Source: Butyrivibrio sp. (GTDB lineage: Bacteria; Bacillota; Clostridia; Lachnospirales; Lachnospiraceae). Taken from it: DNA of 64,000 nucleotides. This document shows positions 8,145-43,993 of this stretch, piece after piece. A program made the translations under genes and the position numbers. The stretch's first letter is position 1. Each line of letters opens with the position of its first letter. A model generated the notes under the pieces. It was not told the origin of the DNA. It searched no databases and saw only the letters and a program-made list of their open reading frames with translations. Location of the stretch: positions 150,033 to 214,032 of the forward strand of contig JAMPEU010000003.1 in assembly GCA_023664865.1 (NCBI GenBank), written 5' to 3'.

Positions 8145-8392
8145 GATGTAAAATCCTTTGCATTGTTAATGTGCATCTTGGTTATTTCATTCAGTTTAGT
8201 TTTAAATTTAAGTAGTTCATATCAAGTGTTGTAATTGACCGTTGTAGTCAAGTGCCATAATACTGTCTCGTACCGCCTCGCGGTATTACTACAGTGCCAG
8301 TACCGTATAACACATGCGCTGTTAGCTTGCTGTAAAGCCGTGGCTTGTCAGCGTGTGTGCAGCACTGGTGTGCCGGTAGGCGGTAATGCTGA

Positions 8393-8577
8393 TAGCTTAC
8401 TGCCGTGGCACCTCTGTGCTGCTATGCTGTATACTAATAGCTTACTGCTGTGGCACTTCTGTGCTGTTATACCGCAATGCTATTGTTTACTGCTGCGGCA
8501 CTTGTATGCTCAGCTTGCTGCTGTTAAGCTTGTGGCTTAGCAGCCGCTGTAGCTTACTGCCGTGGCACTTGTGTTAT
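8393..8577. repeat. degenerate tandem repeat between pilA and pilD
   Basis: Four imperfect copies of a unit starting TAGCTTACTGCYGTGGCAC begin near 8393, 8439, 8484 and 8549 (spacing about 45-65 bp), in a T/G/C-biased stretch within the 450-bp gap 8145-8594. Open frames across it have no ribosome site and no recognisable protein. No clear intrinsic terminator for pilA is seen here. It may be a decayed satellite or a structured untranslated region of the pilA-pilD transcript. Confidence 0.55.
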
Positions 8578-39210: not shown

Positions 39211-39576
39211 TTACTCTGTAGTCACTATATTATTTATCAGCTCCATTGCTTCTTTATCCGTATACCCGAGTTCCCGCATATTCGCGAAAAAGCTGTTTAT
39301 CTGTTTCATCGCCAGCCCATGCCTTGCGTTGCCAATCATCTGCATATCCCCCGTTACGACGCGTCCGGCATTACGCTGCGTCACGACAAGCCCGCTGCGT
39401 TCCAGTTCGGTAAACGCCCGCTGCATCGTGTTCGGGTTGACATTTGCTTCCGCCGCCAAATCCCTTACGCTCGGCAGACGGGTTCCGGCTTTGTATACGC
39501 CGCATACGATACGCACGAGTATCTTATCATACAGCTGCGTATAGATAGGGCGGTCAGAATCCATTTCCCATGCCAT
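39211..39576 (-). CDS. GntR family (YtrA-type) transcriptional regulator
   Basis: A 121-residue protein: winged helix DRPIYTQLYDKILVRIVCGVYKAGTRLPSVRDLAAEANVNPNTMQRAF (about 8-56) and a short C-terminal dimerisation helix, which is the YtrA subfamily. AAGGAGGAG precedes the ATG. It is the first gene of the ABC exporter operon and probably represses it by binding the AGTnnACT-like sites in the promoter. The effector is not known. Confidence 0.9.
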   Translation of the reverse strand: MAWEMDSDRPIYTQLYDKILVRIVCGVYKAGTRLPSVRDLAAEANVNPNTMQRAFTELERSGLVVTQRNAGRVVTGDMQMIGNARHGLAMKQINSFFANMRELGYTDKEAMELINNIVTTE

Positions 39577-39628
39577 ATTTGCTCCTCCTTTTTGTAGTCG
39601 TCAATTAATTGTGAGATTGTGTAATATG

Positions 39629-39725
39629 TAGTGTACTATATTGTAGGCTAGTGTAATATGCCATATTGCAATGTATTATTTAATTAGTACACTAATACAA
39701 TAATACATATGTGTGGGATTGTCAA
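39629..39725 (-). promoter_or_regulatory. promoter and two operator-like sites of the GntR-ABC operon
   Basis: TTGACA (39725-39720), a 17-nt spacer and TATTGT (39702-39697). Directly downstream of the -10 is TAGTACACTA (39685-39694) and a second, inverted match TAGTGTACTA lies at 39629-39638. Paired sites of this type fit a YtrA-like repressor covering the start site. The remaining gap to 39883 is A/T rich and has no gene signal. Confidence 0.6.
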
Positions 39726-39883
39726 TAGGGATTTGTAGAAATTTTTCTTACAGAAGTTACTATTTAAAAAAGCCCTATAAATTCATGGTTTATAGGACTT
39801 TTATCAATATTTTTTTATTCATAATTCACCTATACCTTTTGCATCATACCACAAACATTTTTTAACTGCTATAATCATAATAT

Positions 39884-40479
39884 CTATTTCTTCCTTCTGA
39901 CTGATTTGATTATATCTTCAACATCGTTTTCATTATATCCAACAGACATTGCCCACTCCCTCGCCTCGTCCAACGAAGCTTCAAACTCTTCTACAGAAGG
40001 AAGTTTCAAAGTTTTAAGCATAATAGCATCTCCCAAAAGATATGCTGCTAATTTATGTATGTCCTGTTTCTTAGCCAGATATGTACATTTCATATAATAC
40101 GTTTCATTATATTCTTTACAAAAAATTGCTAATACCTTACAAGTAGGCTGTGTCAATTTCCTTATATCTTCATTATATAACGTTACAGGAAAATCTATAT
40201 TTTTCCCTTACGGAACCCTATACTTAATACCGCTTTCGTATTTCCAACAAAATAATCCGCTTTAATGCAAATTCCACTATTGATAAACTCACCAATCATA
40301 CAATTGTTATAGAGCAAATCCGGAAGATAGTTAAAATCACGAAATCCCACCTGTGTAGTTTTAATATTTTCATTTCTTTGATAGATAATTAGAAAATGTT
40401 TGTTCTTTAAATTTTTATCATAGTTTTCCGACACATCTATTATTATCTTTAGCGCCTGCTCTTTACTGTATTTTTTCAT
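39884..40479 (-). pseudogene. PBECR4-type nuclease toxin gene, frameshifted (locus 1)
   Basis: From the ATG at 40479 (GAGGTG upstream) the frame runs 94 codons (MKKYSKEQALKIIIDVSENY...GFRKGKI) and stops at 40195. The -1 frame continues from the same spot as FPVTLYNEDIRKL...CKVLAIFCKEYNETYYMKCTYLAKK and on to 39884. The pieces align in order with the intact paralogue at 40822-41520: KLLFLSAEQYQKNLENRNLLLI, GVKACVGF, YVPNTVLKMDIRD and LRIIATYRKSRIDEKYSEIVYKAKK. The switch falls at GGGAAAA / a run of five T on the plus strand (40200-40204), so either one base was lost or -1 frameshifting is used. The middle of the domain is shorter than in the paralogue. The C-terminal 45 residues differ. Confidence 0.75.
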
Positions 40480-40498
40480 TCGCACCTCATATAGTAAC

Positions 40499-40527
40499 AA
40501 AAAGGCTGCCCTAATGGACAACCTTTT
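40499..40527 (-). terminator. intrinsic terminator between repeat RNA and PBECR4 locus 1
   Basis: On the minus strand AAAAGGTTGTCC pairs with GGGCAGCCTTTT (G-U pairs included, 4-nt loop) and is followed by T. It sits between the tandem repeats and the ribosome site of the nuclease gene. Confidence 0.75.
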
Positions 40528-40543
40528 CTTTTAATAATCTGCT

Positions 40544-40676
40544 GATTTTTCTGTTGTCTGCCAACTGTCCGCCCTATCATATGCGGCATAAATATGGAGT
40601 TTTTCTGTTGCTCCCCAACTGTCCGTCCTATCATATACGGCATATCTATCAGATTTTTATGGTGTCAGCACACCTG
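40544..40676. repeat. 54-bp tandem repeat, 2.4 copies (locus 1)
   Basis: Full copies at 40544-40597 and 40598-40651 and a partial third copy at 40652-40676, all starting with GATTTTT or GTTTTT on the plus strand. The shared part is CTGTTGYYSCCCAACTGTCC-like followed by CTATCATAT. The period of 54 bp is exact across all three. Confidence 0.88.
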
Positions 40677-40703
40677 AAAAGACATTTCTGCCTTTCTAAT
40701 ATT

Positions 40704-40732
40704 ATTATATTAAGCGGCAATTTTTATGTCAA
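40704..40732 (-). promoter_or_regulatory. consensus promoter of the locus 1 repeat RNA
   Basis: TTGACA (40732-40727), exactly 17 nt, TATAAT (40709-40704): a perfect sigma-A consensus on the minus strand. It is directed into the tandem repeats, with the predicted start near 40697. Confidence 0.88.
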
Positions 40733-40821
40733 GAAAATTTCTTAATTCCATCAATAAATTCCATCAATAAACTTTCATCAGCTAAACATAACCACACAAA
40801 TGTTAATCCCAATTTATTGCA

Positions 40822-41520
40822 TCATGAGGAATTGTCCCGTTTTTTCCTGTCCCTTCGTCCTTCATCTAGTGCTTGTAACTCATCCGGCAAAGGGGCATCT
40901 TCGAGTTTCTTAAGATATTCATATTCTTTTGGAAACATAATTTTTGTCCAATTAACTTTCTTTGCTTTATATACAATTTCGGAATATTTTTCATCTATAC
41001 GGCTTTTCCGATATGTAGCAATAATCCTTAAGCGATTAGCAATGTTATCCCTTATATCCATCTTCAATACTGTATTTGGTACATAACATTTTCTGGATTT
41101 ATCATATACAAACCCCACGCATGCTTTAACGCCGCCTGCTAATTTTTCAGTAAATAGAGCAGGTCTCCTGGCATTATAATCGCCAATCATATTGGCGGAC
41201 AAGCCCGCCGATGAAACAATCGGTAAAAGTACAGACAATTTCTGTTCTGTCGTTCCATCTTCGGCAAGTTCAAAGTCATTGAGCGACAAACGCTTTGTCA
41301 GACACAGCATATAGAAAGTATCCGGGGGCAATCGCTTTCCTTCCTGAAACTTTACCCCTGTCAAGTGCATAAAATTTTTGGCTTCAAATTGCATTTTTAC
41401 TGCAGTAGTCTTATTCATACTCGCATTTGTACAAATTAAGAGTAAATTTCTATTTTCCAAATTCTTTTGATATTGTTCTGCAGATAAGAACAATAATTTT
41501 AGCGCTTCTGTTTTTTTCAA
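40822..41520 (-). CDS. PBECR4-type (BECR-fold) nuclease, putative toxin (locus 2)
   Basis: A 232-residue protein with a TTG start at 41520 and AAAGGACG upstream. It matches the PBECR4 pattern (phage Barnase-EndoU-ColicinE5/D-RelE-like nuclease): EALKLLFLSAEQYQKNLENRNLLLI, FMHLTGVKF, FYMLCLTKRLSLNDFELAEDGTTEQKLSVL, MIGDYN, GGVKACVGFVYD, YVPNTVLKMDIRD and RIIATYRKSRIDEKYSEIVYKAKK. A charged tail ends the protein. The fold is that of metal-independent RNases. Upstream are a terminator, tandem repeats and a promoter, like locus 1. Toxicity and the identity of its antitoxin are inferred. Confidence 0.75.
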   Translation of the reverse strand: MKKTEALKLLFLSAEQYQKNLENRNLLLICTNASMNKTTAVKMQFEAKNFMHLTGVKFQEGKRLPPDTFYMLCLTKRLSLNDFELAEDGTTEQKLSVLLPIVSSAGLSANMIGDYNARRPALFTEKLAGGVKACVGFVYDKSRKCYVPNTVLKMDIRDNIANRLRIIATYRKSRIDEKYSEIVYKAKKVNWTKIMFPKEYEYLKKLEDAPLPDELQALDEGRRDRKKRDNSS

Positions 41521-41550
41521 TTATTTACGTCCTTTGTTATTATAAATTTT

Positions 41551-41590
41551 AAAAGGAGACACATACACCGCAGTGTTGTGTGTCTCCTTT
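41551..41590 (-). terminator. intrinsic terminator between repeat RNA and PBECR4 locus 2
   Basis: On the minus strand AAAGGAGACACA pairs with TGTGTCTCCTTT (12 bp) around an inner ACAC/GTGT pairing, followed by TTTT. It ends 30 nt before the TTG start codon of the nuclease. A close copy of this hairpin is found after gdhA at 42571-42612. Confidence 0.88.
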
Positions 41591-41597
41591 AATGACT

Positions 41598-41720
41598 GAT
41601 TTTATCGTTGTCCGCCAACTCACAAGTCTTTAACCTTGCATCTCTTTCGGATTTTATCGTTGTCCGCCAACTCACAAGTCTTTAGCCTTGCATCTCTTTC
41701 GGATTTTAGATGTCAGCCCA
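41598..41720. repeat. 52-bp tandem repeat, 2.3 copies (locus 2)
   Basis: Full copies at 41598-41649 and 41650-41701 differ at one base (TTTAACC / TTTAGCC); a partial third starts at 41702 (GATTTTAGATGTCAGCCCA). There are no CRISPR-like spacers. Confidence 0.92.
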
Positions 41721-41751
41721 TCAGCAGATTGACGTCTGCTCTCCTACATCT

Positions 41752-41780
41752 ATTATATTCAAAATATAATACATTATCAA
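41752..41780 (-). promoter_or_regulatory. promoter of the locus 2 repeat RNA
   Basis: TTGATA (41780-41775), exactly 17 nt and TATAAT (41757-41752) on the minus strand, directed into the repeats. Five of six bases match consensus at -35 and all at -10. Confidence 0.85.
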
Positions 41781-41787
41781 CTACTTT

Positions 41788-41970
41788 TCACACTTCCTGT
41801 AAAATGTTCTTGTACTTCTTATTATTTCTTATACGCCTTATAGTTTCGTGATTCTGTTGAATATTTCTGTCTAATTCTTCTTTTTCTATATCATACTCTG
41901 TTTTATTATTTCTGATAACATCAATAGATATAGGAAATGTCCAGTCATCTAAAATAATATCTGCTGCCAT
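41788..41970 (-). CDS. small hypothetical protein
   Basis: 60 residues from the ATG at 41970, 6 nt after AGGAGGG, one of the best ribosome sites in this area. MAADIILDDWTFPISIDVI is followed by a charged helical half (EKEELDRNIQQNHETIRRIRNNKKYKNIL). I do not recognise it. It is the last of three overlapping or closely spaced small genes (42426 to 41788) upstream of the repeat-RNA promoter of locus 2. Confidence 0.6.
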   Translation of the reverse strand: MAADIILDDWTFPISIDVIRNNKTEYDIEKEELDRNIQQNHETIRRIRNNKKYKNILQEV

Positions 41971-41981
41971 AACCAACCCTC

Positions 41982-42146
41982 CTAACTATAATATATTCCT
42001 GCTTCACTGCATACCGCTAAAAAAGAAAGTGCCGCATAATACAATTCTTTTATAGTCGATTTCTCATCAAGCCCTGTTATACATTCTTTCCACAGAATAG
42101 CAGCCTCGTCTAAATTAAATGCTTTATCTTTATATAAATAATGCAC
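41982..42146 (-). CDS. small hypothetical protein (54 codons)
   Basis: A GTG at 42146 overlaps the end of the preceding gene by 17 bp and reads VHYLYKDKAFNLDEAAILWKE... to a TAG at 41984. The frame is open farther upstream, so it might also be the second half of a frameshifted gene. It ends 12 bp before the next start codon. No family is recognised; composition looks protein-like (helical, acidic). Confidence 0.4.
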   Translation of the reverse strand: MHYLYKDKAFNLDEAAILWKECITGLDEKSTIKELYYAALSFLAVCSEAGIYYS

Positions 42147-42426
42147 TTTGCCATAATTTGAAACTACTGAAATGATTTGACAAAGTATCAGCTGCTATTG
42201 TTACACTATGCTCATCTCCATAACTGATTCCATAATTTTCCAATGGGTTATCAGATAAAATATCAAAAGTGATTGCCACTTCATTACTGTCATTTTCTTC
42301 TTTTGATAAAATGAGTACCTCTTGCGTAAGCCTTCGCATAATAATATTCTGTTTTTCTGAAAATCCCCTATATTCTATATAGGGAACCTTACTGATGGCA
42401 ACATCAGTTATCTCAATCCTTTTCAT
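42130..42426 (-). CDS. hypothetical protein
   Basis: 98 residues from an ATG at 42426 (weak AGAG site); a TTG at 42462 would add 12. MKRIEITDVAISKVPYIEYRGF, then EVAITFDILSDNPLENYGISYGDEHSVTIAADTL and a SFKLWQSALFI end suggest a compact alpha/beta protein. Not recognised. The upstream hairpin (terminator of gdhA) is a copy of the one before the locus 2 nuclease gene, so this operon may come from a rearranged third locus; this is speculation. Confidence 0.5.
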   Translation of the reverse strand: MKRIEITDVAISKVPYIEYRGFSEKQNIIMRRLTQEVLILSKEENDSNEVAITFDILSDNPLENYGISYGDEHSVTIAADTLSNHFSSFKLWQSALFI

Positions 42427-42570
42427 TATATCTCTGGATTGTTTCAGTTCATTCTCATTCAAATAATTTTTCGTCCAATCTTTTATCGATTATTATGTTT
42501 CTTATTATTAATTCTATATTACCATAATTCTCGCTTATATTCCATACGATTTTCATTTTGCAATTATAAA

Positions 42571-42612
42571 TTTTAAAAGGAGACACATACACCAAAGTGT
42601 TGTATCTCCTTT
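42571..42612 (-). terminator. intrinsic terminator of gdhA
   Basis: On the minus strand a stem of AAAGGAGA with TCTCCTTTT (partner of a GTGTATGTGTCTCC arm) is followed by TTTT, 45 nt after the gdhA stop. It is near-identical to the hairpin at 41551-41590, including the flanking TTGACTGATTTT-like and ATAAATTTT segments. Confidence 0.75.
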
Positions 42613-42655
42613 ATTGACTGATTTTTCACAATTTATATGCGAATTTTAACGCCTT

Positions 42656-43993
<1,338 letters not shown>

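Follow-up and report, generated by a model that had tools for sequence, protein, structure and literature searches.

The locus studied here raises the question of whether a predicted nuclease of the PBECR4 family (PF18813) can be held in check by an RNA encoded just upstream, in the manner of the toxins of type III toxin-antitoxin systems. In the window, by which we mean the whole 64,000-nt stretch of Butyrivibrio sp. DNA that was analysed, two consecutive cassettes lie on the minus strand, each made of a promoter, two units of about 52-55 nt, a terminator and a PBECR4 gene (Table 1). In the upstream cassette (cassette 2) the toxin is intact; in the downstream one (cassette 1) the toxin is broken and the RNA intact. 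A preliminary description of this DNA had already reported two such loci on one strand, with near-consensus promoters, a 17-nt spacer in both and intrinsic terminators, and this outline holds. Judged by hexamer consensus only, the two promoters are the best of 19 promoter-like sites between 39800 and 42700, where shuffled sequences led us to expect 14.6. Folding with flanking sequence gave the terminators a 12-bp outer helix (-21.2 kcal/mol) in cassette 2 and 13 bp (-17.8 kcal/mol) in cassette 1; a pattern scanner requiring a 3-8 nt loop and a T tail immediately after the stem found no terminator. Two other points of the description stand in part. It counted about 2.4 tandem copies, and TRF does find the repeats (52 nt x 2.1, 98%, at 41598-41708; 54 nt x 2.3, 80%, at 40544-40666), but each array consists of two full units beside a leader hairpin, which we take to explain the higher count. 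It also placed a PBECR4 gene in both loci, and both match PF18813, but just one of the two, which encodes 232 aa, is intact. In the broken toxin, the first part (frame 40195-40521) matches the profile with E 2.5e-11, lacks profile positions 41-89, including the HLTG motif, and is continued in another frame.

Table 1. Elements of the PBECR4 cassettes, in window coordinates
Feature	Position	Strand	Basis or detail
Third cassette remnant, s3 and terminator only	42575..42625	-	folding
Promoter of cassette 2, TTGATA-17-TATAAT	41752..41780	-	11/12 consensus bases
Leader hairpin H0 of RNA 2	41709..41722	-	loop GGCTGA pairs with s3
RNA 2 unit 1	41653..41704	-	5' tetramer s1 TCCG, hairpin loop l1 CGGA; TRF and R1 covariance-model alignment
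RNA 2 unit 2	41601..41652	-	s2 TCCG, l2 CGGA; TRF and R1 alignment
s3 of RNA 2, TCAGTC	41594..41599	-	partner of RNA 2 leader loop
Intrinsic terminator hairpin of cassette 2	41551..41590	-	folding
Intact PBECR4 toxin, 232 aa, TTG start	40822..41520	-	PF18813 E 5.6e-27
Promoter of cassette 1, TTGACA-17-TATAAT	40704..40732	-	12/12 consensus bases
Leader hairpin H0 of RNA 1	40661..40674	-	R1 alignment and pairing analysis
RNA 1 unit 1	40600..40654	-	s1 TCTG, l1 GGAG; TRF and R1 alignment
RNA 1 unit 2	40546..40599	-	s2 CTCC, l2 CAGA; TRF and R1 alignment
s3 of RNA 1, TCAGCA	40540..40545	-	partner of RNA 1 leader loop
Intrinsic terminator of cassette 1	40499..40527	-	folding
Broken PBECR4 toxin, N-terminal part	40195..40479	-	internal deletion takes out HLTG motif
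Broken PBECR4 toxin, C-terminal part, other frame	39884..40194	-	PBECR4 profile E 9.4e-15

Three smaller observations belong to the window itself. The C-terminal frame of the broken toxin (39884-40000) ends in a tail, VEEFEASLDEAREWAMSVGYNENDVEDIIKSVRRKK, that is absent from the aligned relatives and for which a family search gave no confident match. The ORF at 42130-42462, next to the third-cassette remnant, has no Pfam match. Elsewhere, a 45 nt x 2.8 tandem repeat (8385-8510) lies between two ORFs that we named by eye as prepilin peptidase-like and pilin-like.

The order of parts in the cassettes is that of ToxIN, CptIN and TenpIN, in which promoter, repeat RNA, Rho-independent terminator and RNase toxin follow one another (available text of PMC5086642), the RNase being a predicted one in our case; TenpI and CptI units are given in the accessible part of PMC12373285 as 50 and 45 nt, repeated 2.1 times. 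A type III system is recognised by a single promoter before the RNA, a tandem-repeat RNA upstream of the toxin, a Rho-independent terminator between the two and homology of the toxin to ToxN/AbiQ. In the window, the promoter is there by consensus only, the terminator as folded hairpins that the pattern scanner does not report, and the tandem repeats directly, relatives keeping the two-unit fold and often not simple repeats. The differences begin with the toxin, which shows no sequence relation to ToxN: PBECR4 gave no PF13958 match at E 1, and hhalign assigned the pair a probability of 0.2%. Searched against PDB sequences, the PBECR4 profile found no ToxN chain, whereas the ToxN profile does find one there, and the same search returned no relative of PBECR4 with a solved structure; a match to Csm5 (E 0.016) was taken as noise.

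Membership of the intact toxin in PBECR4 is clear, with 95.8 bits against a curated cut-off of 27, and the nearest toxin among named genomes, from a Lachnospiraceae MAG, is 77% identical. Pfam predicts for this family the nuclease fold of a BECR RNase. PBECR domains of polyvalent phage proteins are likewise predicted BECR-fold RNases, and solo phage versions are mentioned (Iyer et al., 2017, PMC5512222, available sections); in those sections they appear as effectors, often fused in large proteins, and no RNA partner is mentioned, and the name PBECR4 was not found in the text of that paper. That paper also assigns a His to the active site of PBECR domains. In PBECR4, the His of an H-L-T-G-like motif is invariant in our alignment A7 (20 rows), which omits seven of the 26 named loci, namely L148, L150 and L155 (stop in the matched stretch), L163 (frameshift), and L164, L166 and L168 (partial), and it is present in 30 of 30 rows of a further alignment. 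A similar motif was found in 14 of 15 additional loci of other classes, the exception being L113. We infer that this His corresponds to the active-site residue of the PBECR domains.

The second difference from the known type III systems lies in the RNA, whose two units pair with each other. Read by eye upstream of homologues, these RNAs (class A) share one plan, composed of a leader hairpin H0, two units, s3 and the terminator. Each unit opens with an A-rich joint that leads to a tetramer s, followed by one hairpin and then by a second, small one (H) whose loop l has 5 nt. The tetramer at the 5' end of unit 1 pairs with the hairpin loop of unit 2 (s1 with l2) and the reverse (s2 with l1), and the leader loop pairs with the 3' end (s3). 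RNAalifold, given 14 sequences and unprompted, recovered two of these long pairings, leader loop-s3 and l1-s2. We trained a covariance model, R1, on 18 sequences, and its alignment of 49 matches from 49 hand-chosen sources yielded 31 motif sets; RNAs with one or three units, fragments, repeat copies from a single place, and L170 were not among the sources, and L077 and L113, which were, did not reach the threshold. Rows L006 and L008 were left out as duplicates of L004 and L001. Of the 27 sets that allow a decision, 25 show complete cross pairing, with one pair missing in each of the other two (L071 and L133), and none shows complete self pairing; the alternative of pairing within each unit, no better than shuffles, was rejected. 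Over 47 distinct rows, the full structure pairs 97.5% of cells, with two-sided changes at 22 of 26 pairs; none of 500 shuffles did as well, and slid versions pair 28-59%. The rows are related, and two of the long helices formed part of R1, but the s1-l2 helix, which lies outside the model, reaches 99.5% pairing, and each of its four pairs shows two-sided changes. Of the later rows, L170 and L188, neither of them used before, show complete cross pairing, L170 (read by eye) with new letters (CTAG/CTAG, and leader GTGCGA with TCGCAC), and L189 pairs both ways and decides nothing between cross and self.

The preliminary description proposed that homologues be checked for upstream tandem repeats, whose lack in nearly all genomes would count against its reading. 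Taken literally, the repeats are indeed lacking in most: TRF sees them in four of 35 upstream regions, in a survey that missed even one of the window's own arrays, and we rejected simple tandem repeats as a hallmark of the family. What stands in their place is a structured RNA, and the conserved feature is the cross-paired fold. That repeats and a nuclease gene are neighbours by chance could appeal to this scarcity, and to the ease with which short two-copy repeats arise, but recurrence and covariation together leave such a coincidence a negligible probability. Four single-unit RNAs were seen (L032, L136, L140 and L166), each before a truncated or missing toxin, which fits a requirement for both units, four cases being few. 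As a separate observation, L134 carries a three-unit class A RNA before a toxin without its N-terminal half.

Class A RNA is a recurrent neighbour of PBECR4, lying upstream of it in Clostridia as well as on Bacilli plasmids and phages. Starting from the protein in named genomes, an R1 match lies upstream in 25 of 26 loci, or 24 of 25 once L156 is set aside, whose locus coincides with that of a training sequence. In two of the 25 the contig end leaves no more than a fragment of the RNA (L169, E 9e-5; L167, E 0.014), and in L152 and L153 the RNA stands 166 and 378 nt before the toxin match. The exception, L168, has a toxin match that begins at residue 85. Among plasmid and phage records, 83 had a tblastn match, and the seven examined (Enterococcus, Macrococcoides, Erysipelothrix, Streptococcus and Lactococcus, two of them near-identical) all carry a class A RNA by eye. 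Five of the seven entered R1 training; of the other two, L072 has an R1 match with E 5.6e-6 and L074 was not submitted to R1. Two viral-contig loci never used in model building also match R1. No viral relative turned up when the query was the window protein, a protein of the drum clade or one of class C; a second protein of the drum clade and one from Enterococcus each retrieved two, among them L187, which begins within the gene and lacks the DNA upstream of it. In L073, an Enterococcus phage record marked unverified, three matches to the RatA type I antitoxin lie near the PBECR4 gene.

In the reverse direction, R1 was run over 299 genomes of the window's bacterial family and matched at 34 places in 28 of them. 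At 20 of these places, 13 being training sequences, a PBECR4 match follows on the same strand at a distance of 85-200 nt. The 21 places outside training divide into seven with a PBECR4 match, four of them broken (G281, G205, G130 and G212), three with a toxin remnant (L128, E 5e-10; L134, E 4e-24; L136, E 0.005) and 11 without a detected toxin, among which L139, L141 and L142 are weak or partial RNA matches. As a control for specificity, R1 was tried on 12 ToxN loci, where no match was better than E 0.03. At one ToxN locus, a DUF3800-XI RNA (Rfam) lies downstream of the ToxN gene on the same strand (L180:1115-1164, minus strand). A hairpin followed by a T run was detected upstream of 65 of 93 toxins and 38 of 164 control genes. 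When strong hairpins were counted regardless of type, at -14 kcal/mol, they preceded 78 of 87 toxins and 66 of 150 control genes. T-run hairpins are only moderately distinctive and, by that rule, not universal upstream of the toxins.

The cross-paired fold recurs, but much of the family has other RNAs, above all drum (RF02958). The drum RNA was reportedly first described by Weinberg and colleagues in 2017. An Rfam search of 20 PBECR4 loci placed drum upstream in ten. Over the 299 family genomes, drum has 33 matches in 27 genomes, 31 of them above the gathering score, and 25 of the 33 stand 14-142 nt upstream of PBECR4 on the same strand. The other eight comprise L044, at a contig end, L047, where the last 33 positions of the toxin profile follow (E 5e-9), and six without a detected toxin. 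Drum also precedes PBECR4 in a viral contig (L186) and in a genome outside the family (L183); in L184, another PBECR4 genome outside the family, neither drum nor class A was found upstream. The window's own RNAs are not drum: they match no Rfam family above the gathering score, and drum gave no match in window 39500-43000 even at E 1. The toxins associated with drum form a sister clade of the window toxin, and PBECR4 differs from the known type III systems also in that its sister clades use RNAs without such repeats. In a literature search that left most subscription journals outside its scope, no paper named PBECR4 or PF18813, no link of PBECR4 or drum to an antitoxin was found, and the mentions of drum or RF02958, as far as their text was accessible, carry nothing on function.

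Further RNA types became apparent upstream of 49 long-frame toxins (frame of at least 180 aa, no stop, match starting in the first 16 profile positions; G212 belongs to this set though its C-terminus is truncated). An R1 match (E 1e-5 or better) precedes 14 of them, drum 19 and class C six; four have types D, E and F, which were defined by eye, one has a weak class A variant (L113, R1 E 0.043), and five fit no type that we can name (L002, L080, L092, L098 and L103). Class C is a pair of units of about 32 nt, each a candidate pseudoknot formed by a loop and a downstream partner; all seven positions can pair in 10 of 12 units, and six of the seven in the remaining two (G-U allowed, best register). 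An Rfam search of ten loci of classes C to F gave no match above the gathering score; two microRNA models matched L096 without reaching their gathering scores, and these matches were taken as noise. In the window's own genome (G000), the seven PBECR4 loci carry between them at least three kinds of RNA (class A, drum and the pseudoknot pair); two of its three drum matches lie beside PBECR4, one drum RNA has no toxin (L067), and there are three ToxN matches.

The type of RNA agrees with the phylogeny of the toxins. Mapped onto a tree of 70 proteins, the RNA labels require six changes, the least possible being five, and shuffled labels require 32.2 on average, with none of 200 shuffles as low; drum, C, D and E account for one change each, A for two and U for three. 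Labels for drum and most of A came from the models and the rest were set by eye, and the tree lacks class F (L086 and L105), which the profiles did not retrieve. This is co-evolution of RNA and toxin.

Based on the order of parts, the two-unit RNA, the toxin family, the recurrence in other genomes and this co-evolution, all of which support the earlier proposal of a type III-like system whose toxin is PBECR4 instead of ToxN, we consider it likely that each cassette is a type III-like toxin-antitoxin module, in which the PBECR4 toxin is held by the RNA, with drum and others taking this part in sister clades. One promoter would give mostly an RNA of about 195 nt that stops at the terminator, and occasional read-through would give the PBECR4 protein, a predicted BECR-fold RNase. 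The RNA interlocks through its leader hairpin and two units (s1-l2, s2-l1 and leader loop-3' end), and one toxin may be bound per unit, in a complex that would be wired in advance for two toxins, much like the CptIN heterotetramer. A 2:2 composition is given for CptIN (available text of PMC5086642), and by analogy the cross-paired two-unit fold suggests the same stoichiometry here. The RNA would act in trans, and the toxin would be released once RNA synthesis stops, for example upon phage infection. The sister clades may control the same toxin family by other RNAs, chiefly drum, which would account for the function of that RNA. A precedent exists in AbiF/RCd22 of Clostridioides difficile, where the antitoxin was shown to be an RNA carrying the Rfam abiF motif (RF03085) and the ncRNA acts in trans by direct interaction with the protein (accessible part of PMC12373285). 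As in the window cassettes, this ncRNA lies upstream of the toxin gene and is built of two copies, there of an Rfam motif; in contrast, the AbiF toxin belongs to the Abi_2/AbiD/F family, and the window RNAs have no Rfam assignment.

The terminator directly before the gene is also what an attenuator would look like, and the RNA might then be a leader acting in cis, which attenuates or senses to set read-through into the PBECR4 gene and is no antitoxin. Such a role would be compatible with the cassettes in so far as binding of RNA to protein is our reading of them, but RNAs with their terminator persist without a detected toxin (11 of 34 class A places and 6 of 33 drum matches, besides the remnants), though these could be decaying, and RNA type tracks toxin clade; we regard a purely cis-acting leader as unlikely. 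The tight genetic pairing and the co-evolution would look identical if the RNA were there to activate the nuclease or to direct it, as a cofactor or guide. However, no variable guide-like segment was seen, the loops pair inside the RNA, and termination ahead of the toxin gene is in keeping with an RNA more abundant than its protein, which makes this role very improbable. We favour an RNA antitoxin acting on the protein because of the order of parts, the excess of RNA expected from termination, the RNAs without toxin, the co-evolution and the AbiF/RCd22 precedent.

If this is true, a type III-like system would be about as common as ToxIN in the window's bacterial family, because PBECR4 occurs in 57 of 299 genomes and the ToxN family in 45 of 299. 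Outside that family PBECR4 is rare, with four of 398 genomes drawn across the phylum, two of the four lying inside the family. We further think it more probable than not that the PBECR4 toxins make up one RNA-neutralised superfamily, which has taken partners from at least six unrelated RNA folds (the interlocked two-unit fold, drum, tandem pseudoknots of about 32 nt and others). The orphan Rfam RNA drum gains a testable role, and on the superfamily reading its function would be explained. PBECR4 would also offer a clean case of RNA-protein co-evolution, one toxin family with several changes of RNA partner, and RNA antitoxins would, if the superfamily reading is true, be the fast-changing partner of one toxin fold.
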